DNA of 51,448 nt. It comes from an uncultured Ectothiorhodospiraceae bacterium (lineage in GTDB: Bacteria; Pseudomonadota; Gammaproteobacteria; XJ16; Halofilaceae). The translations under genes and the position numbers were made by a program. The stretch covers positions 1 through 51,448 of the forward strand of contig CAJXKK010000019.1 of assembly GCA_913055615.1 (NCBI GenBank). The letters are read 5' to 3'. Every line of letters starts with the position of its first letter. The first letter of the stretch is position 1. The notes beneath the pieces are model-generated. The model did not search any database. It was given only the letters and a program-made list of their open reading frames with translations, and was not told where the DNA came from. Positions 22,202 to 45,100 of the stretch are shown one piece after another.

Positions 22202-23617
22202 ATGAGTGTCGTTACCCGCTTCGCCCCGAGCCCGACCGGTTTTTTGCATATCGGGGGTGCCCGCACCGCGCTGTTTTCCTGGCTGCACGCACGCCGTCAC
22301 GGCGGCCGCTTCATCCTGCGCGTGGAGGATACCGATCGTGATCGCTCCACCGAGGAGGCCACGCGTGCGATCCTGGAGGGTATGCACTGGCTCGGCCTTG
22401 ACCATGACGAGGGTCCGTACTTCCAGAGCGAGCGGGGCGAGCGCTATCGCGAAGTGCTCGACGACTGGCTGGCGACGGGCAAGGCGTATTACTGCTTCCG
22501 CACGAAGGAGGAACTCGACGAACTGCGCGAGGCGCAGCGTGCACGCGGCGAGAAACCGCGTTATGACGGCTACTGGCGCGACAATGACGAAACGCCGCCG
22601 GAAGGCGTGACGCCCTGCATCCGGTTCAAAAACCCCCTCGAGGGCGAGGTGGTGTTCGATGACCGGATCCGCGGCCGAGTAGCGGTTGCCAACGCCGAAC
22701 TGGACGATCTGGTCATCTGCCGCTCCGATGGCTCGCCGACCTACAATTTCTGCGTGGTCGTCGATGATTACGACATGGGGGTGACCGACGTCGTCCGCGG
22801 CGATGATCACGTGAGCAACACGCCGCGCCAGATCAACATGCTGCGTGCGCTGGATGTCGAACCGCCGAATTACGCCCACGTGCCCATGATCCTCGGGCCC
22901 GACGGCAAGCGCCTGTCGAAGCGCCACGGTGCCGTGAGCGTGATGCAGTACGCTGAAGAGGGGTATCTGGCGGAGGCGCTGATGAACTACCTTGTCCGTC
23001 TCGGCTGGGCGCACGGCGATCAGGAGATCTTCTCGCGCGGGGAGATGATCGAGCACTTCGACCTGGGCGACGTGAACCACTCGGCGTCGACCTTCAATCC
23101 GGAGAAACTGCGCTGGCTCAATCAGCAGTACCTGAAATCGCTGCACCCGGACGACGTCGCGTGGCGCCTGCGCTATTACCTCGAACAGGCCGAGATCGAT
23201 CCCGCCAGCGGGCCGCATCTTGCAGACCTGGTCAAGGCGCAGCGCGAGCGCAGCACCACCCTCGTGGAACTCGTCGAGAGCAGCCGCTTCCTGTTCCAGG
23301 ATTTCCTCGAGTGGGACGAAAAGGCCGTGCGCAAGCATCTCGGTGGCGCCGCGACGGAACCCCTTGAGCGGGTGCGCGCCGAACTCGCCGGGCTCGAATT
23401 CCCCGAGGGCTGGAACGCCGCCGCGATCCATGAGGCGATCAGCGGTGTCGCGCAGGAACTCGAACTGGGGATGGGCAAGGTGGCACAGCCGGTACGGGTC
23501 GCCGTCTCCGGCACGCCGGTGTCGCCGCCCATCGATACTACGCTCGAACTGCTCGGGCGCGAGCGCACGCTTTATCGCCTGGACCGGGCGATCGGGCGCA
23601 CGCGCGAGGCGGCCTGA
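22202..23617 (+). CDS. gltX: glutamyl-tRNA synthetase
   Basis: A 471-residue class I synthetase that charges tRNA-Glu. The HIGH motif is at residues 16-19 in FAPSPTGFLHIGGARTAL, and the KMSKS-type loop is DGKRLSKRHGA (~240). The glutamate-pocket text ILRVEDTDRDR, the VRGDDHVSNTPRQ helix and an anticodon-binding C-terminal half (~320-471) are complete. The zinc-knuckle region near ~100-125 keeps only one Cys (AYYCFRTKEELDEL), so zinc binding is probably lost, as in many relatives. A truncated relative, gluQ, lies at 41193-42122. Confidence 0.97.
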   Translation: MSVVTRFAPSPTGFLHIGGARTALFSWLHARRHGGRFILRVEDTDRDRSTEEATRAILEGMHWLGLDHDEGPYFQSERGERYREVLDDWLATGKAYYCFRTKEELDELREAQRARGEKPRYDGYWRDNDETPPEGVTPCIRFKNPLEGEVVFDDRIRGRVAVANAELDDLVICRSDGSPTYNFCVVVDDYDMGVTDVVRGDDHVSNTPRQINMLRALDVEPPNYAHVPMILGPDGKRLSKRHGAVSVMQYAEEGYLAEALMNYLVRLGWAHGDQEIFSRGEMIEHFDLGDVNHSASTFNPEKLRWLNQQYLKSLHPDDVAWRLRYYLEQAEIDPASGPHLADLVKAQRERSTTLVELVESSRFLFQDFLEWDEKAVRKHLGGAATEPLERVRAELAGLEFPEGWNAAAIHEAISGVAQELELGMGKVAQPVRVAVSGTPVSPPIDTTLELLGRERTLYRLDRAIGRTREAA

Positions 23618-23717
23618 GCCCAGTACCGCCCCGGCACCGCGCCACGGGCAGCATCCTTCACACGCCGGGGCCTCCGGGCCGTCCGCGCGGTGACGGCATC
23701 CAACGGGGATAGCGCGA

Positions 23718-25997
23718 ATGCAGCAACCTGATCAGCCCGTACTCCGGGATATCGTCCTCGTGGGCGGTGGTCACAGCCACGTAGGCGTCCTGCGGCGCTT
23801 TGCCATGAACCCCGTTCCGGGCGTGCGCCTCACCCTGATCTGCCGGGACAGCCACACGCCGTACTCCGGCATGCTGCCAGGCTACATCGCCGGCCATTAC
23901 GGCTATGACGATGTCCACATCGATCTCGCCCGGCTGGCGGTGTTCGCCGGCGCGCGCTTCTACCACGCCGAGGCGGTCGGCATCGATCGCGGGGCGCGCA
24001 CGGTGCATTGCGCCGACCGCCCCCCGGTCCCGTACGACCAGCTCTCGATCAATATCGGTTCCACGCCCCAGGTCCAGCGCGTGACCGGTGCGGCGGACAA
24101 CGTCGTCCCGGTCAAGCCGATCCATCGCTTCGACGCCCGCTGGCAGGCGCTGCTGGAACGCGTCCGTGCCCACCCCGGGCGCACCCGGATCGCGGTCGTC
24201 GGCGCCGGTGCCGGGGGCGTCGAGCTGACCCTGGCGATGCAGTACCGCCTCCGCGGCGAGCTGCGCGAGCGTGGCCGTGATCCGGACGAGCTGGAGTTGC
24301 ATCTGTTCGATGCCAGCGACGAGATCCTGCCCACACACAACGCCCTTGTGCGCAACCTGTTCGAGCGCACGCTGGTCGACCGGGGGGTCGTCCTGCACCG
24401 GGGCGTCGCCGTCGACGAGGTTACGCCGGGGCTGCTCCATGGCAGCGGCGGCGTTCAGTTGGAAGCCGACGAGATCGTCTGGGTGACCCAGGCCGGCGGT
24501 GCGCCGTGGCTGGAGAACACCGGGCTGGAGCTGGACAAGGGCGGTTTCATCCGCGTGCGCGAGACCCTGCAGACGGTCACCGATGACCGCATCTTCGCCG
24601 CGGGCGATATCGCCAGCATGGATGCCCATCCCCGGGCCAAGTCGGGCGTCTTCGCCGTGCGCATGGGGCCGCCGCTGGCCGAGAACCTGCGCCGCGCGGT
24701 CAAGGGGCGGAGGCTGCGCCCGTACCGCCCGCAGCGTTCGTGGCTCGCCCTGATCAGCACGGGAGACCGCTATGCGGTGGCTTCACGCGGCGCGCTCGCC
24801 CTGCATGGCCGCTGGACCTGGCGCTGGAAGGACTGGATCGACCGGCGCTTCATGGCCAAGTTCAACGATCTGCCGCGCATGGAGGAGGAGGCGAGCGGTT
24901 CCGGCCAGTCCGGCGTGCAGCTCGAGCGCGAGGAGGCCGCCCAGGCCATTTCCGCGGTCGCGATGCGCTGTGGCGGCTGCGGCGCGAAGGTCGGGGCCGG
25001 GACGCTGTCGAATGCGCTCGGCAACCTGCGGCCGATCGCGCGCGACGATATCCTGGTCGGTCTGCATGCCCCCGACGACGCGGCGGTTGTCCGGGTGCCG
25101 CCAGGCATGGCGATGGTCCATACCGTGGATTTCTTCCGCGCCTTCATCGAAGACCCGTATGTGTTCGGTCAGGTGGCGGCCAACCATGCCCTGGGTGACA
25201 TCTTCGCGATGGGCGCGGATCCGCAGAGTGCGATGGCGATCGCGACCGTGCCCCCGGGGCTGGAGAGCAAGGTCGAGGACACGCTGTTTCAGATGATGTC
25301 CGGCGCCCTGGAGATACTGAACGATGCCGAGTGCGCGCTCGTGGGCGGGCACAGCGGCGAGGGGCGTGAACTGGCGCTCGGTTTCGCCATTAACGGGCTG
25401 GTGGCGGATGACGGCAGCAAAACCCTGCAAAAGGGCGGTATGCAGGCCGGCGACTGCCTGATCCTGACCAAGCCGCTGGGCACCGGCACGCTGTTCGCCG
25501 CCCATCCAACGCTCGATGCCCGTGGCCGCTGGATCGATGGCGCCCTCGCGGCGATGTGCCAGTCCAACCGCCGCGGTGCCGCCTGCCTGCTGGAGCATGG
25601 TGCGACCGCCTGCACCGACGTTACCGGCTTCGGCCTGCTCGGGCACCTGGTGGAGATGACCCGGCCCTCGGAGGTGGACGCGGAGGTCGATCTGTCCGCG
25701 TTGCCGGTGCTCGACGGGGCGGAGGAAACCATTGCGGCCGGCGTGCTCAGTTCGCTGCAGCCGGCCAACGTGCGGCTGCGGCGGGCGCTGCGCAACCAGG
25801 CGGAGATGGCGGACCACCCGCGCTATCCGCTGGTCTTCGATCCGCAGACCGCCGGGGGCCTGCTGGCGTCCGTGCCTGCGGAGCGGGCGGAAGATTGCAT
25901 CGCGGCGCTGCACGCCAGCGGCTATGCGGAGGCGACCATCATTGGCCGCGTGCATGCGCAGGGCGAGGCGCTGGAGCCCATCGTCCTCAGGGCCTGA
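23718..25997 (+). CDS. selD: bifunctional NADH dehydrogenase-like/selenide water dikinase (SelD fusion, SenC role)
   Basis: A 759-residue two-domain protein. Residues ~10-380 are a flavin pyridine-nucleotide oxidoreductase of the NDH-2 type (IVLVGGGHSH at 12-21; VVGAGAGGVEL at 160-170; FAAGDIAS at 293-300). Residues ~412-759 are selenophosphate synthetase, which makes selenophosphate from selenide and ATP. The active site is CGGCGAK with Cys421 (equal to E. coli Cys17) and Lys424 (Lys20); the second Cys of E. coli is Ala here. DDAAV, VDFFRAF, NHALGDIFAMGA and DVTGFGLLGH are intact. There is no in-frame UGA, so it is not a selenoprotein. GGGGA lies ~8 bp before the ATG. It ends 11 bp inside senB on the other strand. 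The flavin domain may reduce the selenium source. Confidence is high for the fusion, good for the SenC role. Confidence 0.93.
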   Translation: MQQPDQPVLRDIVLVGGGHSHVGVLRRFAMNPVPGVRLTLICRDSHTPYSGMLPGYIAGHYGYDDVHIDLARLAVFAGARFYHAEAVGIDRGARTVHCADRPPVPYDQLSINIGSTPQVQRVTGAADNVVPVKPIHRFDARWQALLERVRAHPGRTRIAVVGAGAGGVELTLAMQYRLRGELRERGRDPDELELHLFDASDEILPTHNALVRNLFERTLVDRGVVLHRGVAVDEVTPGLLHGSGGVQLEADEIVWVTQAGGAPWLENTGLELDKGGFIRVRETLQTVTDDRIFAAGDIASMDAHPRAKSGVFAVRMGPPLAENLRRAVKGRRLRPYRPQRSWLALISTGDRYAVASRGALALHGRWTWRWKDWIDRRFMAKFNDLPRMEEEASGSGQSGVQLEREEAAQAISAVAMRCGGCGAKVGAGTLSNALGNLRPIARDDILVGLHAPDDAAVVRVPPGMAMVHTVDFFRAFIEDPYVFGQVAANHALGDIFAMGADPQSAMAIATVPPGLESKVEDTLFQMMSGALEILNDAECALVGGHSGEGRELALGFAINGLVADDGSKTLQKGGMQAGDCLILTKPLGTGTLFAAHPTLDARGRWIDGALAAMCQSNRRGAACLLEHGATACTDVTGFGLLGHLVEMTRPSEVDAEVDLSALPVLDGAEETIAAGVLSSLQPANVRLRRALRNQAEMADHPRYPLVFDPQTAGGLLASVPAERAEDCIAALHASGYAEATIIGRVHAQGEALEPIVLRA

Positions 25998-26991
25998 CGG
26001 CCTCCACGGCCCGCACCAGGGCGGCGCGCTCCGCCGCCGGCGTGAACCAGGACGCGCGCTCGCTGCAGCGCGCTCTGAGGGTATCGAGGAAGTCGGGCTC
26101 GCGTTCGGCGCGCAGGAGCAGTGCCCGCAGGGCCTGGCTGTCGCGCGCGGGAAAATAAGCGGGGTAGTCCGCGCCCAGCAGGCCGCGGTTGCCCGGGATG
26201 TCGGAGGCGATCACGGGCAGGCCCGCGACACAGGCCTCGGAGACGACATTGGCGCCGCCTTCCATGACCGAACTCATGACCATGGCACGGGAGCGGGCCA
26301 TGAGTCGCCGGATCTGCCAGTGGGGGCGCTCCCCCTGCCAGACAAAACGCGGATTGCGCGCCTGTTCGGCCCGCGCGGCCTCGGCCTGGTCGTCGCTGTG
26401 CGCGCGCCCGGCGTGGACGACGCGGATCGATGAATCCGTCGGCAGACCGCGCGCGGCAAGGGCCGCGCGCAGCGGATCCTTCTCCGCCCGCAGGTGCCCG
26501 ATGACGCAGACGGTGAAATGCCGCCGGGACGGCCCGGGGCGCCCCGCGGGCAGCGGCGCGGCGGACTGGTGCACGATATGCAGGCGCGCATGAAACCGTG
26601 AGGGTATGTCGAAGCGAACGTCGTCGTGTAAACCGATCAGCGCATGCGCCCGGTCCATTGCCGCGTGCGTGGTCTGCCGGTGGCTCGACTGAAAGCGATA
26701 GATGTCGGTACCGGTGAGGGCGACGATCAAGGGCCGTTCGGGCCAGCGATCGCTGAATGCCTCGATGGCCTCGGCGCTGCGCCACGCGTGCAGTGCTACC
26801 ATAAGATCGCCGGCCCGCGCGGTGTGCTCTGCCGCGTCGGCGGGCTCACGGATCGACACCCGATAGCCCGATTCCCGCAGGAAACGGGCCCAGCGACCCG
26901 CGGTGGCGCGGTTGCCGGCCCGCGAGCGCGGGGGTGCAGGCGTCACGAGCGTGACCGCTGGACCCGAGCGAACAGGCAAGGAGTTCTCCAT
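25987..26991 (-). CDS. senB: selenosugar synthase-like GT-B glycosyltransferase
   Basis: A 334-residue glycosyltransferase of the GT-B fold. The N-terminal VTLVTPAPPRSRAGNR and RWARFLRESGYRV match the start of the TIGR04348/SenB type, which joins selenophosphate and UDP-sugar to a selenosugar. LTGTDIYRF (~96), VIGHLRAEKDPLRAALAA (~170) and the donor-site MEGGANVVSEA with its Glu (~255) are visible. The gene lies antisense between senC and senA. Its ATG at 26991 shares two bases with the senA ATG, and its stop region overlaps senC by 11 bp. An in-frame TTG at 26979 with GGAG before it is another possible start. Name given from family memory and context. Confidence 0.85.
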   Translation of the reverse strand: MENSLPVRSGPAVTLVTPAPPRSRAGNRATAGRWARFLRESGYRVSIREPADAAEHTARAGDLMVALHAWRSAEAIEAFSDRWPERPLIVALTGTDIYRFQSSHRQTTHAAMDRAHALIGLHDDVRFDIPSRFHARLHIVHQSAAPLPAGRPGPSRRHFTVCVIGHLRAEKDPLRAALAARGLPTDSSIRVVHAGRAHSDDQAEAARAEQARNPRFVWQGERPHWQIRRLMARSRAMVMSSVMEGGANVVSEACVAGLPVIASDIPGNRGLLGADYPAYFPARDSQALRALLLRAEREPDFLDTLRARCSERASWFTPAAERAALVRAVEAVRP

Positions 26992-28327
26992 GATCGAGGT
27001 TCCCGATAGTCGGCGGCTGCCCGCCGAAGAACTGGCCGCCATGCTGACGGATGCCCGCCGGCGCACGTACGAGTTGACCGACGATCTGACGGGCGATCGG
27101 CAACTCGGGCCCAAGCTTAGCATCGTCAACCCACCGCTCTGGGAACTGGGCCACGTCGGTTTCTTCCACGACTATTTCGCGCTGCGCAAACTGTACGGTC
27201 TGGACGCGTACCAGATCCCGGAGGCGGAGCAGCTCTACGACTCGAGTGCCATCGCGCACGATCCGCGCTGGGAATTGCCGCTGCCCGACCGCGCCCGCAC
27301 GCATGAATACCTCGACCGCATCCAGGCGGCCATGCTGGCGCGTCTGCCCGATGGCGGCGAGGCGAGCGCCGAGCAGACCCACATCTACCAGCTGACGCTG
27401 CTGCACGAGGACATGCACGGCGAGGCGTTCTTCTGGAGCCGCCAGACCCTCGGCGATCCGCAACCGGCGATCACGGTGCCCGACCGACTGCCTTCGGCGG
27501 AGCCGAGCGGACCGTGGCCCGGCGATGTCCAGGTGCCGGGCGGAGAGCACGTACTCGGCTCGGAGGCGGATGCGGAGGCGCCGTTCCGTTTCGACAACGA
27601 GAAACCCGCGCAGCGGCTTGTCGTCGAGCCGTTCTCGATCGCCCGGGCGCCGGTCACCAATGCCGAATTCGAGGCCTTCATCGATGCCGGCGGCTACAAC
27701 GACCCCAGGTGGTGGAGCGAGGAAGGCTGGCAGTACATCCAGGAGCAGGGAGTAACGGCGCCACGCAATTGGCGCGACGGGCCCAATGGGCGTGAGCAGC
27801 GCCTGTTCGACCAGTGGTGGCCGCTGGCGCCGCATCAGCCGGTCTCCTTCGTCAGCTACTGGGAGGCCGAAGCCTGGTGCAACTGGGCCGGGCGGCGGCT
27901 GCCGACCGAGCTCGAGTGGGAGGTCGCCGCGAGTCGCGTGCCCGACGCCTCGGGCCGGGAACTGACGCCCGGTAAACGGATCTATCCGTGGGGCGATGAA
28001 CGCCCCGAAGCGCGCCACGCCAACCTCGACGGCTATCGGCTCGGCCGGGTGGATGTCGCCGCGCTGCCGGATGGGGACAGCGGCTGCGGCTGCCGGCAGA
28101 TGCTGGGCAATGTCTGGGAGTGGACCAGCAGCCTGTTCCGACCCTATCCGGGCTTCGAGGCCGGGCTGTACCGAGACTATTCGCAGCCGTGGTTCAAGGA
28201 GGATCGACGCGTGCTGCGCGGCGGCGCCTGGCCGACCCGGCCGCGCCTCGTGCACAACATGCACCGCAACTTCTTCCTGCCGGGGCGCAACGACCTGTTC
28301 ACCGGCTTCCGGACCTGTGCACGCTGA
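26990..28327 (+). CDS. senA: selenoneine synthase-like EgtB homologue (non-heme iron C-Se/C-S bond enzyme)
   Basis: A 445-residue protein with an N-terminal DinB-like four-helix domain (~10-155) and a C-terminal formylglycine-generating-enzyme/SUMF1 lectin fold (~180-445). The iron triad is visible as His55 (WELGHVGFF), His139 and His143 (LLHEDMHGEAFFW). Typical FGE text follows: PVTNAEFEAFIDAGGY, QPVSFVSYWEAEAWCNWAG, RLPTELEWEVAAS, MLGNVWEWTSS and the end FLPGRNDLFTGFRTCAR. The family joins hercynine to a thiol or selenosugar. Because senB, SelD and egtD are beside it, selenoneine synthase (SenA) is preferred over ergothioneine EgtB. AAGGAG (26978-26983) supports the ATG at 26990. Confidence 0.88.
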   Translation: MIEVPDSRRLPAEELAAMLTDARRRTYELTDDLTGDRQLGPKLSIVNPPLWELGHVGFFHDYFALRKLYGLDAYQIPEAEQLYDSSAIAHDPRWELPLPDRARTHEYLDRIQAAMLARLPDGGEASAEQTHIYQLTLLHEDMHGEAFFWSRQTLGDPQPAITVPDRLPSAEPSGPWPGDVQVPGGEHVLGSEADAEAPFRFDNEKPAQRLVVEPFSIARAPVTNAEFEAFIDAGGYNDPRWWSEEGWQYIQEQGVTAPRNWRDGPNGREQRLFDQWWPLAPHQPVSFVSYWEAEAWCNWAGRRLPTELEWEVAASRVPDASGRELTPGKRIYPWGDERPEARHANLDGYRLGRVDVAALPDGDSGCGCRQMLGNVWEWTSSLFRPYPGFEAGLYRDYSQPWFKEDRRVLRGGAWPTRPRLVHNMHRNFFLPGRNDLFTGFRTCAR

Positions 28328-28367
28328 ACGGACCAATTCCACGAAAACGAACGAGAAGGGGTTTGCA

Positions 28368-29264
28368 ATGAATCTTCGTCGAGAGATTATCGATGGGCCT
28401 GGCCTTATGGTCGCAGTACTGGCCGCTGCTTTACTGGCGGTGTTCGCGTCGCCGGTGGCGGCGCAGGAAACGCTGGTGTTCACCGCGATCCCGGACCAGG
28501 ACGAGACGAAGCTGCGCGAGCGCTTCGATCGGGTCGCCGAGTACCTTGAGGCCGAACTCGACCGCGACGTACGCTATGTCCCGGTCAAGTCGTACTCGGC
28601 CGCCGTCAGCGCTTTCCGCAACAACCAGGTACAGCTCGCATGGTTCGGGGGACTCTCGGGCGTGCGCGCCCGTGAGGCGGTGCCCGGGTCGCGGGCACTC
28701 GCCCAGGGCGAGGAAGACGCGCGTTTCCGGACGTACTTCATCGCCCACCATAGTACCGGCCTCGAACCCGCCGACGAGCTGCCGGCCGGTATCGAGGGGC
28801 TGACGTTCACTTTCGGCTCCAAGGGTTCCACCTCGGGTCGCCTGATGCCGGAATTCCATATCCGACAGCGCTTCGACGCGCCCCCGAACGAGGTCTTCCG
28901 CCGCGTGGGCTTTTCCGGCAACCACACGCGCACGATCGCGCTGGTGGAATCCGGCACGTACCAGGTGGGCGCCCTAAACTACAAGGTCTGGGAGGCGCAG
29001 AAGGAGGCCGGCAAAATCGATACCGACGCGGTCAAGGTGATCTACCGCACACCGCCGTACGCGGATTATCAGTGGACGGTCCGTGGGGATGTCGACGAGC
29101 GCTTCGGCGACGGCTTCACGGAGCGCGTGCAGCAGGCGCTGCTCGATATGGATGATCCGGAACTGCTGGCGAGCTTCCCGCGCAAGGGATTCATCCCGGC
29201 GGACAACGATGACTACGAAACAATCCGCGAGACGGCGCGCCAGCTCGATCTGATCGGTAGATGA
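28368..29264 (+). CDS. phosphonate-type ABC transporter binding protein, putative selenium oxyanion binder
   Basis: A 298-residue periplasmic protein of the PhnD/phosphate-phosphite-phosphonate family. A signal peptide (hydrophobic 14-29, cleavage near VAA-QET) is clear; there is no lipobox. The core reads LVFTAIPDQDETKLRERFD, YVPVKSYSAAVSAFRNNQVQ, LAWFGGLSGVRAREAVPG, FGSKGSTSGRLMPEF and LVESGTYQVGALNYKVWEA, typical of the clade described (TIGR04553, from memory) as beside selD and called a putative selenate binder. AAGGGG lies 7 bp before the ATG at 28368. It starts 40 bp after senA and overlaps the ATPase by 4 bp (ATGA). The true ligand is unproven: selenite, selenate or an organic selenium compound are all possible. 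Confidence 0.88.
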   Translation: MNLRREIIDGPGLMVAVLAAALLAVFASPVAAQETLVFTAIPDQDETKLRERFDRVAEYLEAELDRDVRYVPVKSYSAAVSAFRNNQVQLAWFGGLSGVRAREAVPGSRALAQGEEDARFRTYFIAHHSTGLEPADELPAGIEGLTFTFGSKGSTSGRLMPEFHIRQRFDAPPNEVFRRVGFSGNHTRTIALVESGTYQVGALNYKVWEAQKEAGKIDTDAVKVIYRTPPYADYQWTVRGDVDERFGDGFTERVQQALLDMDDPELLASFPRKGFIPADNDDYETIRETARQLDLIGR

Positions 29265-29944
29265 CGGTGCTGTCGCTGGCCGGGGCCCGCGCCAGCTACG
29301 GCGGCGAGCGGGCACTGGGACCGATCGACCTGTCCGTGGCCGCGGGCGAGCGGGTCGCGCTGGTCGGCCGCAGCGGGGCCGGCAAGTCGACCCTGCTCAA
29401 GCTGCTGCACGATCCCGCGCGACGCGACATCGCGATCATGCCGCAGGAGCTCGGGCTGGTCGACTCGCTGTCCGTGTTCCACAACGTCTACATGGGTCGG
29501 CTGAATCGCCACACCGTCTGGTACAACCTCGCGAACCTCGTCCGGCCGATGAAAACGGAGCAGGCCGCGGTGCGCGCGGTACTCGAACCGCTGGGCATGG
29601 CCGAGCGGATCCGCTCGCGCGCGGGTGAGCTCTCCGGTGGCCAGCGCCAGCGCGTGGCCGTGGGCCGTTGCCTCTACCAGGACGCGGACATCCTGCTGGC
29701 GGACGAACCGGTCTCGGCGCTCGATGGCCCGCGCGCCAACGGCGTCATGCAGGCCCTGACCGCGGCCTACGGCACGGCCGTGCTGGCACTGCACGATATC
29801 GAACTCGCGTTGCGCTACAGTGATCGGGTGGTCGGTCTCAACGACGGTCACATCGTGCTCGATGAGCCGAGCGACCGGCTGACCGAAGGGGATCTGGCTC
29901 CGCTGTACGCCGAGCCGATGGAGCCCGGCCGGGCGACCGGCTAG
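29261..29944 (+). CDS. ABC transporter ATP-binding protein (PhnC type) of the selenium locus
   Basis: A 227-residue ATPase: Walker A GRSGAGKST (~37-45), Q-loop in IMPQELGLVDSLSVF, signature LSGGQRQRVAVGR (~125-137), Walker B ILLADEPVSALD and H-loop LALHDIE. It is shorter than many PhnC proteins. Its ATG overlaps the binding-protein stop, and the permease gene starts 11 bp after its stop. It powers the uptake system on the cytoplasmic face. Confidence 0.93.
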   Translation: MTVLSLAGARASYGGERALGPIDLSVAAGERVALVGRSGAGKSTLLKLLHDPARRDIAIMPQELGLVDSLSVFHNVYMGRLNRHTVWYNLANLVRPMKTEQAAVRAVLEPLGMAERIRSRAGELSGGQRQRVAVGRCLYQDADILLADEPVSALDGPRANGVMQALTAAYGTAVLALHDIELALRYSDRVVGLNDGHIVLDEPSDRLTEGDLAPLYAEPMEPGRATG

Positions 29945-29955
29945 CCGGCGCGATC

Positions 29956-31428
29956 ATGATCCGCGCCCCCGCCGTCCGCACGAGCCTCGGCTTCGTCGCC
30001 GTCGCGCTGTTCTTCCTGCCTTTCGCCGACCTCGAGATCAGCGCGGTCGAGCCGTGGACCGAACTCGGGCGACTGCTGCTCGGACTGCTGACGCCGGACC
30101 CGACCGTCCTCGATTCGGTCGCGATGGCGCTGGTGCGGACGGTCGCGTTCGCCTTCGTCGGCGTGGCGCTCGGCGCCGCCGGCGGTTTCGTGCTCGCACT
30201 CGGCTTCCGCCACTGGCCGGTGCGCACCGGCTGTGCCTTCGTGCGCGCGATCCACGAACTGTTCTGGGCGCTGATCTTCCTGCAGTGTTTCGGCCTGCAT
30301 CCGCTGACCGGCGTGCTGGCCATCGCCATCCCGTATGCCGGCGTGTTTGCCAAGGTCTACTCGGAGATCCTCGACGAGGCCGATCCGCAGCCGGAACGCA
30401 CGCTGCCCGCCGGTACCGGCGTACTGGCGAGGTTCCTGTTCGCGCGCGTGCCGGACGCCTGGCCGCATATCGCCAGCTACACCGCGTACCGCCTGGAATG
30501 CGGGCTGCGTTCCAGCGCCGTGCTCGGTTTCGTCGGCATGCCGACGCTGGGCTTCCATCTGGAGTCGGCGTTCTCGCAGGGGCTGTATTCCGAGGTCGGC
30601 ATGCTGCTTCTGACCTTCTACGTGCTGGTGGCCACGCTGCGGCTCTGGGCGCGGCCGCGGCTCCTGCCGTTCTACCTGCTGGCGGCCCCGTTCCTGCTTG
30701 GCAGCGGTCTGCCGATCGTGTGGGGCAACGTCAGCCGCTTCTTCACCCAGGATATCGTCCCGGCACCGCTGCAGGACGGCGAGGGCTGGGCCGCGTTCGC
30801 AATGTGGCTCGGGGATATCCTGGCCAGCGAGGCGCTGCCGGGCGTGATCGCGACCGTCATCCTCACCCAGATCGCCCTGGTGGTGACCGGCGCGCTGGCC
30901 CTTGCGGCCTTCCCGCTGGTCTCACGCCACTTCACCGGGCGGATCAGCCGCACGGTCGGTCACGGCATCCTGGTGGTGGCTCGGACCACGCCCGAGTATC
31001 TGCTGGCCTACATCCTGCTGCAGCTCTGGGGGCCGTCCATGCTGCCGGCGGTGATTGCGCTGGCGATCCATAACGCCGGAATCATCGGCCACCTGATCGG
31101 GCGGCGCAGCAACGAGATCCAGTTGCGCAGTGATGCGCCCGCCGGTGTCGAGCGTTACGGCTACGAGATCCTGCCCAGGGTGTACGGGCCGTTCCTCGCG
31201 CTGCTGTTCTACCGCTGGGAGATCATCATGCGGGAGACGGCGATCCTCGGCATCCTCGGTATAACCACGCTCGGCTTCTACGTCGACAGTGCGATGGAGG
31301 CCATCCGGTTCGACGTCGCGTTCATCCTCATCCTCGTTACCGCGGTGCTGAACATCGGCGTCGATGCACTGGCCCGCTGGCTGCGCAGGCGCTTGCAGCT
31401 CCGCACAACGCCCGGCGCACAGTCCTGA
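29956..31428 (+). CDS. double-domain ABC permease (fused PhnE pair) of the selenium locus
   Basis: A 490-residue inner-membrane protein holding two permease domains in one chain. The first (~1-235) has VRTVAFAFVGVALGAAGGFV and an EAA-like loop around EILDEADPQPERTLPAG; the second (~275-475) has IATVILTQIALVVTGALALA, a loop with APAGVERYGYEILPRV and LGITTLGFYVDSAMEA. Both end in the PhnE-like G(M/I)xTLGF text. One chain could form the whole pore, whereas PhnE normally works as a dimer. It completes the importer with the two preceding genes and ends 12 bp from convergent egtD. Confidence 0.92.
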   Translation: MIRAPAVRTSLGFVAVALFFLPFADLEISAVEPWTELGRLLLGLLTPDPTVLDSVAMALVRTVAFAFVGVALGAAGGFVLALGFRHWPVRTGCAFVRAIHELFWALIFLQCFGLHPLTGVLAIAIPYAGVFAKVYSEILDEADPQPERTLPAGTGVLARFLFARVPDAWPHIASYTAYRLECGLRSSAVLGFVGMPTLGFHLESAFSQGLYSEVGMLLLTFYVLVATLRLWARPRLLPFYLLAAPFLLGSGLPIVWGNVSRFFTQDIVPAPLQDGEGWAAFAMWLGDILASEALPGVIATVILTQIALVVTGALALAAFPLVSRHFTGRISRTVGHGILVVARTTPEYLLAYILLQLWGPSMLPAVIALAIHNAGIIGHLIGRRSNEIQLRSDAPAGVERYGYEILPRVYGPFLALLFYRWEIIMRETAILGILGITTLGFYVDSAMEAIRFDVAFILILVTAVLNIGVDALARWLRRRLQLRTTPGAQS

Positions 31429-31440
31429 GCGCGGCCCGGC

Positions 31441-32460
31441 TCAGTCGCGGGTGCCGGCCGCCGGCCGCGCCAGCAGCAGCGAGAAGTAGCCGTTGTCCGG
31501 CTCGAAGGCCGTGTCCAGCGACAGGCCCGCGCGGGACAGTTCCTCCTCGATATCCGCCGGCGTGAACTTGCGGCTGATCTCGGTCAGGATCGACTCGCCC
31601 GCGGCGAACTCCCAGCTGCGCTCCAGCGCGGGTACCTGCACGCTGAACGCCCGCTGGGCATCGAGGTACATCTCGATGCGCTGCTGTTCGCGGTCGTAGC
31701 GCGCGCGGTGGCGGAATGCGTCGAGCGGAAAGTCAGCGCCCAGCTCGCGGTTCAGCACGTTCAGCAGATTCAGGTTGAAGGCCGCCGTAACGCCCGCGGC
31801 GTCGTCGTAGGCCGCCTCCAGGACCTGCGGGTCCTTGACGCGGTCGACGCCCAGCAGCAGGGCGTCCCCGGGCTGCATGCAGCGGGCGAGGTCGGCGAGG
31901 AAGGCGACCGACTCGTCGGCCGTGAAATTGCCAAGCGTACCGCCCAGGAATACGTACAGGCGTCGCCCGGGCGGTGCCGGCAGCGTGTCGAGGCCACCGA
32001 GATAGTCGCCGGCGAGTCCGGTTACCCCCAGCCATGGGTACTCCGACCGCAGGGTCGCACCGGCTTCACGGACGACTTCAGGGCAGACATCGAGCGGCCA
32101 GTAGCGGGGTGCCAGCCCGGTGCGCTCGCAGGCATCGAGCAGACGACGGGTCTTGCGGCTGGTGCCGCTGCCGAGTTCGATGATGTGCTCCGCGGGGTGG
32201 CGCGCCAGGACCTCCGGCGCGCATTCGTGCAGCACCGCATCCTCGGTGCGCGTCGGATAGTACTCCGGCGTGTCGCAGATCCGATCGAACAGGGCGGAGC
32301 CGTGTTCGTCATAGAAATATTTCGGCGGCAGCGATTTCGGAGTGCGCTCGAAGCCGGCGACCAGATCGTCCGCCAGCGTGGGTCCGGGTGCGTCCGTGCC
32401 GATGGTAATGACCTCGACATCGATGCCGCTGTCGGCCGACCGGGTCAGGCTGTCCGTCAT
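31441..32460 (-). CDS. egtD: L-histidine N-alpha-methyltransferase (hercynine synthase)
   Basis: A 339-residue SAM-dependent methyltransferase that trimethylates histidine to hercynine, the precursor of ergothioneine and selenoneine. Family marks are PPKYFYDEHGSALFDRICDT, PEYYPTRTE, the SAM loop ELGSGTSRKTRRLLDA, YVFLGGTLGNF, LLLGVDRVKD and YDDAAGVTAAFNLNLL; the tail carries RKFTPADIEEELSRAGL. The start at 32460 follows GGAGG by ~9 bp; longer frames run through the tRNA region. It faces the importer genes tail to tail, so it needs its own promoter in 32461-32694. It supplies the SenA substrate. Confidence 0.95.
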   Translation of the reverse strand: MTDSLTRSADSGIDVEVITIGTDAPGPTLADDLVAGFERTPKSLPPKYFYDEHGSALFDRICDTPEYYPTRTEDAVLHECAPEVLARHPAEHIIELGSGTSRKTRRLLDACERTGLAPRYWPLDVCPEVVREAGATLRSEYPWLGVTGLAGDYLGGLDTLPAPPGRRLYVFLGGTLGNFTADESVAFLADLARCMQPGDALLLGVDRVKDPQVLEAAYDDAAGVTAAFNLNLLNVLNRELGADFPLDAFRHRARYDREQQRIEMYLDAQRAFSVQVPALERSWEFAAGESILTEISRKFTPADIEEELSRAGLSLDTAFEPDNGYFSLLLARPAAGTRD

Positions 32461-32649
32461 ACCGGATATCCTCCGCTGCTGGGGGGCTTGTTGCTCATGG
32501 CCCGCGAACCCCGGCCGATCCATGGTATCGGCTCCGATGCTGGCCAGCCCGGGAGGATAGCACCCCGTCACCGTGGATTGACCCCCGATCGGCCCTCCCG
32601 GATGCCGTAGCGGGGTGCGGGTGAAATGCCCGTCGTGGTGAACAGAGAC

Positions 32650-32679
32650 TTGACGGACTCCGGCCGCGATCAGTATTCT
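32650..32679 (+). promoter_or_regulatory. sigma70 promoter of tRNA-Ala(GGC)
   Basis: TTGACG (32650-32655), 18 bp, TATTCT (32674-32679); the tRNA begins 15 bp further on after a GCGCTCC discriminator. Confidence 0.7.
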
Positions 32680-32694
32680 TCGCGCTCCTGACGT

Positions 32695-32770
32695 GGGGCC
32701 ATAGCTCAGCCGGGAGAGCGCCTGCATGGCATGCAGGAGGTCGGCGGTTCGATCCCGCCTGGCTCCACCA
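32695..32770 (+). tRNA. tRNA-Ala (anticodon GGC)
   Basis: 76 nt with encoded CCA. The acceptor is GGGGCCA/TGGCTCC, the D-arm GCTC...GAGC, the anticodon stem CCTGC/GCAGG with loop ATGGCAT (anticodon GGC, reading GCC/GCT), and the T-loop TTCGATC. It differs from the CGC isoacceptor at 1148-1223 mainly in the anticodon arm. Confidence 0.95.
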
Positions 32771-41192: not shown

Positions 41193-42122
41193 TCAGGCGC
41201 CTTCCCGGCGAAGCCCGCCACCCGGGCCCGCGGCCACGAGGCGTTCGCCCGGGGGGATCGCGCCCTCATCCCAGCGCGACAGAGCCCAGGCCAGGAATTC
41301 GGCCGGCGTAGCCGGTGTTTCGAATGGAGGCTCCTGCCCGAGGAAAGTCCATGCCTGGATGAGCGGGGTGACCGGATCGTGGGCCGGGTTCACGGGGGGC
41401 GCGCCCGTCTGCTTGCTGAGCTTGTCGGTGCCGTCCGCCGTCATCATTACCGGCAGGTGGGCCCAGGCGGGCGCGTGCAGGCCGAGCCCGCGCTGGAGTT
41501 CGTTCTGGATGACCGCGGCCGGCAGGAGGTCGCTGCCGCGGACGACGTCGGTCACTCCGAGGAAGGCGTCGTCGACGGTCGTGGCGAGGTGGTAGCCGGT
41601 CACCCCATTGCGCCGGCGCACGATCACGTCACCGATCCGGTCGGCGTCGATGGACCAGGCGCCCTGGATGCGGTCCGCGACCTCATGTCGGCCTGCCGAT
41701 AACCGCAGCCGTAGTGCGGCATCGCGTTCCGGATGCGTCGGGCCATTGCGGCAGGTCCCGGGGTAGATGGCGCCCAGCGGCCCGTAGCGTGCGCCGGCGC
41801 CGATCTCGCGCCGGGTACAGGTACAGCGGTACAGCCGGCCGGCCGCCTCGAGTTGTTCCAGCGCGGCGACATAGGCCTCCGTGCGCCCGCTCTGGTAGAG
41901 CACCGGACCATCCCAGGTCAGGCCGAAGGCCTCCAGCTGCACCTGGATGGTGTTGGTCATGGCCGCGATACTGCGGTCCGGATCGAGGTCGTCGATGCGC
42001 AGGTACCAGTGGCCGCCGGCGGCACGGGCGCTCAGCCAGCTGCCGAGTGCGGCGATCAGCGAGCCGAAATGCAGCGGCCCGGTGGGCGACGGCGCGAAGC
42101 GCCCGATCGTTCGCATGGTCAT
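41193..42122 (-). CDS. gluQ: glutamyl-Q tRNA(Asp) synthetase
   Basis: A 309-residue GluRS paralogue lacking the anticodon-binding half; it attaches glutamate to queuosine at position 34 of tRNA-Asp. The HIGH-type motif is in APSPTGPLHFGSL (~10-22), the KMSKS-type loop is DKLSKQTGA, and the zinc ligands are in RCTCTRREIG and YPGTC. The ATG at 42122 overlaps the RND stop as ATGA, fixing the start; longer frames are in the pump gene's shadow. Confidence 0.94.
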   Translation of the reverse strand: MTMRTIGRFAPSPTGPLHFGSLIAALGSWLSARAAGGHWYLRIDDLDPDRSIAAMTNTIQVQLEAFGLTWDGPVLYQSGRTEAYVAALEQLEAAGRLYRCTCTRREIGAGARYGPLGAIYPGTCRNGPTHPERDAALRLRLSAGRHEVADRIQGAWSIDADRIGDVIVRRRNGVTGYHLATTVDDAFLGVTDVVRGSDLLPAAVIQNELQRGLGLHAPAWAHLPVMMTADGTDKLSKQTGAPPVNPAHDPVTPLIQAWTFLGQEPPFETPATPAEFLAWALSRWDEGAIPPGERLVAAGPGGGLRREGA

Positions 42123-45100
42123 GATCGCCGCAGCCGCCAGGATCGTTTCATGGTCATGCCGTACACGGTGGGCACGACGAACAGCGTCAGTAACGTAGAC
42201 ACGACCAGGCCCCATACGATCGCCGTGGCGACCGGTCCCCAGAGCAGCGATTCGCCGCCCAGGCCGGCCGCGAGCGAGAACAGGCCGGCGACCGTGGTGG
42301 TCGAGGTGATGAGTATCGGGATCACCCGCCTGCGGGCCGCGAACAGAGTGGCATGCGCGAGCGACATGCCGCGGTCGAGGCGCTCGTTGGCGGCGGAGAC
42401 CAGCACGATCGCCGCGTTCACCGCGATACCGGCAAGCGCGATGATGCCGTACATGGTGAACAGCGACAGCGGGTTGCCGGTCGCGATCAGCCCGGCAGTG
42501 ACGCCGGTGAAGGCCATGGGAACCGTGGTGAGGATCATCAGGGGCTGGAAATAGCTCCGGAACTGGGTGCCGAGGATCAGATACATCAGCCCCAGACCGA
42601 ACAGGAAGAGGATGGCCATCGAGTCGAGGCTGTCCTGGATATCGTCCAGCAGGCCGGAGAAATCCAGCGATACATCGGGGTGGCGGCTGCGGACGTCCTC
42701 CCATTGCGTTTTGATCCAGTCGTTCGCCTCGATGGTGTCCATCCGCGTCTTGTCGAGATTGGCCTCCACGGTAATCGTGCGCCGAAAGTCGTAATGGTTG
42801 ATCGAAGCGAGGCCGGGGGTGCGTTCGAGGTTGACCAGTTCGTGCAGCGGTACCCGGCCGCCGTCCGCGCTCGGCAGTGAGATGTCCAGCACCTCGTCGA
42901 TCGCCCCGAGGGTAGCGTCGCGACCGGCGAAGACGCGGATCTCGCGTTCTTCGCCGGCGTCCTGGAAGGCGGTTGCGATCTCGCCATCCACCATGAGCTT
43001 GACCGTGCGCGAGACACGCGCGGCCGACACGCCGGCCCGCCGCGCCGCGCGGGCATCGACGTCGACGTCGAGCGTCATCTGCCCGCTCGTGTCGTCATCC
43101 GATATGTCCCGGATCGCGTCGTTGCGCTCCATCAGGGCCTTGAGGTCATCGACCGCGGCACGCAGGTCATCGAAGTCGTCGCCGCGGACCTTCACGCTGA
43201 TCGGATTGGTCGCCGGCGGTCCGCCCGCGATCTCGAGGAACGTGACGGACTCCGGTCCCGGCAGCGATTCGACCCGCGGCCGCAGGTCGGCGATCATCGT
43301 CTCGACGTCGCGCAAGTCCCCGTTGTCCGGATTGAGCGCGACCAGCACCTGGCCGTAATGCTCCCCGCTGCGGGGAGAGGTATCGGTGTACTGGCGCCCG
43401 GCGTAGCTGACCATGGAGCGGACTTCGCCCGCGCGCACGCCCGCACGCAGGCGCTCTTCGACCTCCCGGGTTTCCTCGAGCGTGTTCGCGAGCGGTGTAC
43501 CGACCGGCATCTCGATGTTCACGTAGAAAAGCCGGATCGGGTCCGTGGCGAAGAAGTCGCGGCGGATACCGGTTTCGGTCGCGACCGCCGCGCCCGCGAG
43601 CCCGACCAGTACCACGGCGATCACCAGCATGCGCCCCGGCGCCCGCATGACCCGCGCCAGCAGGCCGGTATAGAGGCTGCGGATCCGCCGCAGGGTGCGG
43701 CGCCGCAGGCGCTGGACGCGGGATGGGCGGTTGAGGTCGATGCGTGCCGCGGCCACATGCGCCGGCAGCATCCAGAAGGCCTCGATCAGACTGATCAGCA
43801 GCGCCGTAGTGACCACCAGCGGCACGATGTACATGAACTTGCCGAGGATCCCCGGCAGCAGCATCAGCGGCAGGAACGCCGCGATCGTCGTCATCACCGC
43901 CGTGACGACCGGGGTGCCGACTTCGCGCACACCATCGATGGCCGCATCCAGCGCCGCGGCGCCGCGTTCCATGCGGTAATAGATCGATTCGACGACGACC
44001 ACCGCGTCGTCCACCAGCATGCCGAGCGCGATCACGATACCGAGCAGGACCGTGACGTTGAGCGTCTGGTCGAGGCCCCAGAGTACCCAGAAGGTGCCCG
44101 CCAGAATGAAGGGGATCGCGATCGCGGTCAGCAGCGAGATGCCGGTGCCGAGGAACAGCCAGGCCACCACCAGCACCAGGCCGAGGCCGATCAACAGGTT
44201 GGTCTGCATGATCGACAGCGCCTCGCGCGTGATCTCGGTGCGATCATCGGCGACGATCAGCCGGGCGCCGGTGCTGTCGCTGAGCGCATTGCGTTCGTCG
44301 ACGTACTCGTTGATCCGATCGACCAGCGTCAGCGTATTCGCCTCGCCCTCCTTGTTGACCCCGAGCATCACGGCGGGGCGGTCACGGTAGCGGGTCAGTT
44401 CGGCGTTCTCGCTGCGCCCGCGACCGACCTTCGCCAGCCGATCGAGCGCGACCTCGCCCTTGATCGTCTCCACGGGTAGCGAGCCGAGATCGGCCGGGTC
44501 GCTCGAGGTCCCGGTGATACTCACCAGCCAGCCCTGATCGCCCACCTCGATGCCGCCGGCCGCGAGATCGCGTGCGTAGCCCCGGACCGTGTCGACGAGA
44601 TCGCCCGGGGCGATGCCGTGCGCCTCGACGGCGGCCGGATCGAAGCGGACATGGATCTCGGGGTCGTTGAGCCCGGTGGCGAGCACCTGATCGACCCCGG
44701 ATATCCGCTCCAGATCTTCCATTACGCCCTGGGCCTGGCGGCGCAGCTGTTCGCCGTCACCGGGTGTCGTGACGATCACTGTTGCGGCGGGGAATGCGTT
44801 GGCGGTGGTGATCTCCGTGATATCCGGCTCTTCGGCGTCGTCCGGTATCTCATCCTCGGCGGACCGCACCTCGCGCCGCAGATCGGCCACGCGCTCCGCG
44901 AACTCGGCGTCGCTGATGTCCTCGAATCGCACCAGGATCGAGGAGATGCTCTCACGGCTGGTGCTGGAGACGAACTTGACGTCGGACAGGCTCTCGAGCG
45001 CCCGCTCGATGGGATCCGTTACGCGTTTCTCGATATCGCGTGCCGTCGCGCCGGGCAGGACCGTGTTGATCTCGATCCAGTTGAAGTTGACGGTCGGGTC

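Follow-up and report, generated by a model that had tools for sequence, protein, structure and literature searches.

The sen cluster of Variovorax paradoxus is described as three genes, senA, senB and senC (Kayrouz 2022, as cited in PMC9814287 and PMC10891094). PhnD1, a picocyanobacterial substrate-binding protein of the phosphonate type, binds phosphite at ~1 µM and phosphate at 7-88 µM (PMC10284923). According to a 2026 review, prokaryotes have no known selenium transport system that is both specific and of high affinity (PMC13188914). Here we describe a locus that appears to join these subjects. It lies at 23718-32460 in a 51,448-nucleotide stretch of DNA (the window; contig C19 of 87 in a 3.0 Mb genome, GenBank CAJXKK010000019.1, assembly GCA_913055615.1) from an uncultured Ectothiorhodospiraceae bacterium, and consists of seven intact reading frames between gltX and a tRNA-Ala gene. 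We predict, at a probability of about 0.77, that these genes encode a selenoneine pathway that comes with its own supply of selenium. The selenoneine pathway itself is already known; if anything here is new, it is the selenium-linked importer.

Protein families were assigned using NCBIfam models with curated cut-offs. A plus-strand gene at 23718-25997 encodes a 759-residue SelD fusion in the role of SenC, with an N-terminal oxidoreductase domain that binds flavin adenine dinucleotide and nicotinamide adenine dinucleotide (phosphate) (FAD/NAD(P)) (TIGR03169, 509 bits, cut-off 310; TIGR00476, 291 bits, cut-off 125). It aligns to E. coli SelD (3u0o), and its CGGCGAK motif holds the equivalents of Cys17 and Lys20. 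The predicted selenosugar synthase SenB is encoded on the minus strand at 25987-26991 (family match 26002-26955), and the 445-residue predicted selenoneine synthase SenA on the plus strand at 26990-28327. Three plus-strand genes for an ATP-binding cassette (ABC) importer follow: a periplasmic substrate-binding protein with an N-terminal signal-like stretch (28368-29264; TIGR04553, named "putative selenate", 398 bits, cut-off 250), a PhnC-like ATPase (29261-29944; TIGR02315, 174 bits, below the cut-off of 266), and a 490-residue permease (29956-31428) that matches TIGR01097 in two PhnE-like stretches within one protein (211 bits, just below the cut-off of 217). EgtD, a histidine N-alpha-methyltransferase (hercynine synthase), is encoded on the minus strand at 31441-32460 (TIGR03438, 357 bits, cut-off 291) and is near the solved EgtD structures 4uy5 and 4pim (294 bits to 4uy5).

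The initial annotation had named these proteins and placed their genes back to back. All are present, and SenA, SenB, SelD, EgtD and the binding protein exceed their curated cut-offs, including those of the models for SenB (TIGR04348), the binding protein (TIGR04553), SenA (NF041186) and EgtD (TIGR03438). The seven genes are contiguous, yet they are not a single operon; SenB and EgtD are on the minus strand. The annotation's GT-B protein is indeed a SenB, with 398 bits to TIGR04348 (cut-off 300). It keeps V. paradoxus residues N20, T23, H58, R61, T83, T85, D86, R155, K158, E231 and E239, which include the catalytic Lys158, Asn20, Thr23 and Glu231 and the residues of the selenophosphate pocket. 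It has EGGANV where V. paradoxus has EGGAHV and does not share V157, L209 and T214, positions at which changes are tolerated in V. paradoxus SenB (PMC10891094). The calculated isoelectric point of SenB is 10.9, against 4.6-6.0 for nine other window proteins for which it was computed.

The importer was examined in 369 genomes belonging to the same class; kinship among families is ignored in the statistics. Fourteen of these genomes, from 12 families, encode a protein above the TIGR04553 cut-off. All 14 encode SelD, compared with 72 of the 355 others (Fisher p=6e-10; p=3e-9 when the window's genome is left out), and none of the seven genomes whose homologues are near misses (208-240 bits) has SelD. 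SenB is present in 9/14, compared with 13/355 (p=3e-9). The importer lies beside sen genes in varied arrangements in Halomonas, Methylobacterium, a Burkholderiales metagenome-assembled genome (MAG), and genomes G128, G156 and G333. It is downstream of SenA in the window, Halomonas, G128 and G333, upstream of SelD at locus L063, divergent from SenB in G156, and after SelD in Methylobacterium. In the tree of binding proteins, those linked to SelD form a 24-row group (support 94/90), with the near-miss proteins outside.

Two loci carry the importer beside SelD without the full set of sen genes. At L171 (G210:C235) it directly adjoins a fragment of a SelD-fusion gene, and the genome has no SenB, a hint that the importer associates with SelD rather than with SenB. 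L175 (G219:C4, 5979-12900) combines a SelD fusion, SenB and the importer in one cluster, with no SenA homologue between or beside them; this suggests either that the selenosugar goes into another product or that SenA is encoded elsewhere in that genome.

The product of the locus depends on the identity of SenA, which scores 473 bits to NF041186 (cut-off 420). We weighed whether the enzyme is instead an EgtB and the product ergothioneine, since the two belong to a common superfamily, EgtD adjoins the gene, and the EgtB model TIGR03440 gives 314 bits. That score is under the cut-off of 360, as is the score to the OvoA model TIGR04344 (128 bits, cut-off 400). The initial annotation had pointed to His55, His139 and His143, and these line up with the residues that bind iron in EgtB. 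HxxRW (H90xxR93W94 in the window) takes the place of the EgtB RxxR in every SenA-group and OvsA sequence. A tree of 53 proteins groups the window SenA with V. paradoxus SenA and OvsA (support 100/100), as the annotation's reading would have it, and so apart from both EgtB and OvoA; outside this selenium clade lie the EgtB proteins of M. thermoresistibile and C. thermophilum as well as a paralogue from the window's own genome (at L117). Grouping the window SenA with M. thermoresistibile EgtB is rejected by the approximately unbiased (AU) test (p=0.003). An EgtB would also leave SenB and SelD without purpose, and the genome has a separate pair of EgtB-like and EgtC-like genes. Taken together, the scores, the tree, the AU test and the motif rule out EgtB, and an ergothioneine locus is scarcely credible. 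OvsA is an ovoselenol synthase with histidine as its substrate. The initial annotation had not considered it, and it would make the product ovoselenol or another 5-seleno-histidine. Among solved structures OvsA is the top phmmer match (305 bits; V. paradoxus SenA reaches 238). The top entry, PDB 8ux5, is itself a mutant (M401Y/Q430N/A431F), titled as a hercynine-binding variant with selenoneine-biosynthetic activity. The window SenA has Tyr397, Asn427 and Phe428 at these three switch positions in place of Met, Gln and Ala. Across the SenA group the columns hold Tyr in 69/71, Asn in 64/71 and Phe or Tyr in 70/71, whereas all nine wild-type OvsA homologues carry Met, Gln and Ala there (the tenth row is the mutant). 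The columns that separate SenA from OvsA were compared before the 8ux5 mutant was known, so the comparison is a fair test; the window protein is of SenA type at 13/15. The window SenA lies outside the separate 100/100 clade of OvsA homologues, and neither SenB nor EgtD occurs within 10 kb in any of nine OvsA-clade loci, while the islet has EgtD. We therefore set OvsA aside as very improbable. Selenoneine is the likely product, because Tyr-Asn-Phe occupies the positions proven to switch between OvsA and SenA. The predicted SenA structure (predicted local distance difference test score, pLDDT, 92.7) does not discriminate among the three enzymes, with Z scores of 49 to EgtB, 47-49 to OvsA and 42 to SenA.

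A further alternative leaves selenoneine to the four enzymes and makes the importer a mere neighbor that takes up phosphate, phosphite or phosphonate. PhnD1 of Synechococcus and Prochlorococcus also scores above the TIGR04553 threshold (337 and 301 bits), with the phosphite and phosphate affinities given above, so we rejected the name of this model as proof of selenate transport. PhnD1 is a 100/99 sister to the window importer's clade within the SelD-linked group. The window protein keeps the phosphate-binding residues of PhnD1; mapped on PhnD1 of Synechococcus MITS9220, its pocket consists of Y76, S154-T155-S156, H186, D233 and Y234. These residues are nearly invariant among selenium-linked and unlinked homologues and do not discriminate the importer from the near-misses. 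A phosphate-type importer sits poorly with the strict co-occurrence with SelD (14/14, against 0/7 for near-misses) and with the repeated linkage to sen genes and selD in several gene orders, and the paper that screened PhnD1 ligands does not mention selenium (PMC10284923). We consider a neighbor of this kind unlikely. The importer of the selenoneine locus probably carries some selenium oxyanion, and selenite is favored, a trigonal oxyanion as phosphite is. This role is well supported by co-occurrence, not by sequence alone.

Several points weigh against selenoneine synthesis with a dedicated selenium supply. The pocket of the binding protein also occurs in proteins with phosphite, phosphate or methylphosphonate as ligand (cf. 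PMC10284923). The importer is found within 10 kb in only 12 of 69 SenA-clade loci, so it is not obligatory. The tree does not settle where the window SenA falls among the deep forks of the selenium clade: the AU test rejects neither a grouping with OvsA (p=0.08) nor one with V. paradoxus SenA (p=0.19). EgtD may not serve selenoneine alone, as the separate EgtB-like and EgtC-like pair would need the EgtD of the islet. This pair is at L117 (G000:C29, 8378-10391), where an EgtC-like gene precedes an EgtB-like one from an atypical group of 380-400-residue proteins, and no EgtD is present there. The EgtB-like protein is below both the EgtB and the SenA cut-offs and the EgtC-like protein is just under its own. 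The pair suggests that this hercynine may feed the synthesis of ergothioneine as well.

For selenoneine, we assign the enzyme steps by membership in families with demonstrated reactions. The importer would take up a selenium oxyanion, most likely selenite, which general cell thiols would reduce to selenide. The SelD fusion is predicted to form selenophosphate. SenB would join this to a uridine diphosphate (UDP)-sugar and then remove phosphate to yield a selenosugar. EgtD would convert histidine and S-adenosylmethionine (SAM) to hercynine, and SenA, predicted to be an iron enzyme, would place selenium onto C2 of the hercynine imidazole to give selenoneine. The initial annotation had every step in one block and fed by imported selenium. 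The specific enzymes are indeed all in the block, but reduction of selenite to selenide and supply of the UDP-sugar, both housekeeping functions, are not among its steps. The three importer genes and their co-occurrence with SelD stand, while that the cargo is selenium is something we infer.

The genome's only SelD and only EgtD above cut-off are both inside the islet. Tests for selenocysteine and selenouridine genes found no SelA or SelU in the genome, so the selenophosphate has no known use other than selenoneine, and the locus is a compact example of selenium use via a small molecule alone. All 12 genomes checked that have SenA above cut-off carry EgtD. In the same-genus genome G002, gltX is directly followed by the promoter of tRNA-Ala (TTGACG) and then the tRNA itself, and the flanking genes are the same on both sides. 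This empty site (L129, G002:C8, 5437-7186) lacks ~9.0 kb that correspond to window 23618-32649. SenA, SenB, SelD, EgtD and TIGR04553 proteins were not found in either of the same-genus genomes G001 and G002. The 9-kb selenoneine islet has been either gained or lost. Its G+C content is not unusual. The closest SenA proteins are from a soda-lake MAG (68% identity), Halomonas jincaotanensis (63-64%) and a second MAG of the soda-lake series (60%), where the soda lake label is our reading of the MAG names. These relatives from soda lakes and Halomonas lend weak support to the initial annotation's view that the organism may be a halophile.

The likely ATG codons of SenB (minus strand) and SenA (plus strand) overlap head to head within CATG at 26989-26992, and the pair is divergent in 54 of 61 related loci with SenB. 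A scan for promoters and terminators inside the locus gave no signal above chance. A sigma-70-like site at 32650 is consistent with a promoter for tRNA-Ala(GGC), which lies outside the system at 32695-32770 on the plus strand (ARAGORN and Rfam). On the left, also outside, is gltX (22202-23617, plus strand; TIGR00464), 84% identical in G002. The Rfam scan of the window found two tRNAs only, and no riboswitch or other RNA. A tRNA of unknown type called by ARAGORN at 42075-42162 has no Rfam match and is a false call at the start of a GluQRS-like gene.

The islet importer is a concrete, testable candidate for a selenium transporter, and it raises the question of whether the widely annotated "phosphonate/selenate" family feeds selenium metabolism. 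We tentatively suggest that it is one of a family of importers dedicated to selenite, confined to selenium-using bacteria and including the picocyanobacterial PhnD1CE. If this were true, the taste of PhnD1 for phosphite, which the host cannot use, would be a by-product of recognizing selenite, which is similar in shape. Prochlorococcus and marine Synechococcus reportedly have a SelD homologue with an NADH-dehydrogenase-like extension, placed outside the true SelD orthologues (PMC1273633). The NCBIfam model "fusion_not_SelD" may cover this homologue.

The islet resembles the V. paradoxus sen cluster in its SelD-type enzyme, its SenB with the same catalytic residues, and its hercynine-type SenA. 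It differs in that EgtD and a three-gene importer are linked and SelD is fused to an oxidoreductase. The two SenA proteins are ~41% identical, and that of the window is of another lineage. The sen locus of Halomonas jincaotanensis (L038) has all seven genes, with proteins 41-74% identical, and the SelD fusion, SenB, SenA and importer are in the same order and on the same strands as in the window, but its EgtD is at the opposite end, beside the SelD fusion. The OvsA/ovoselenol pathway (8u41, 8u42 and 8ux5, Halomonas utahensis) shares the fold, the selenium clade and the HxxRW motif with the window SenA. It differs in the histidine-type Met, Gln and Ala of OvsA, and neither SenB nor EgtD was found near OvsA-clade loci. 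In two gammaproteobacterial MAGs an OvsA homologue is beside a SenA-like protein of a separate clade (L056, 4846-7573; L058, 90-2819). That clade, for which we found ~12 loci, has no SenB within 10 kb, although HxxRW and the hercynine-type residues are present. The picocyanobacterial PhnDCE (PhnD1; 7s6g, 5lq5) has a binding protein 46% identical to that of the window, with the same pocket and NCBIfam family; in contrast to the islet importer, it has been read as a phosphate transporter and is linked to tesA instead of sen genes (PMC10284923).

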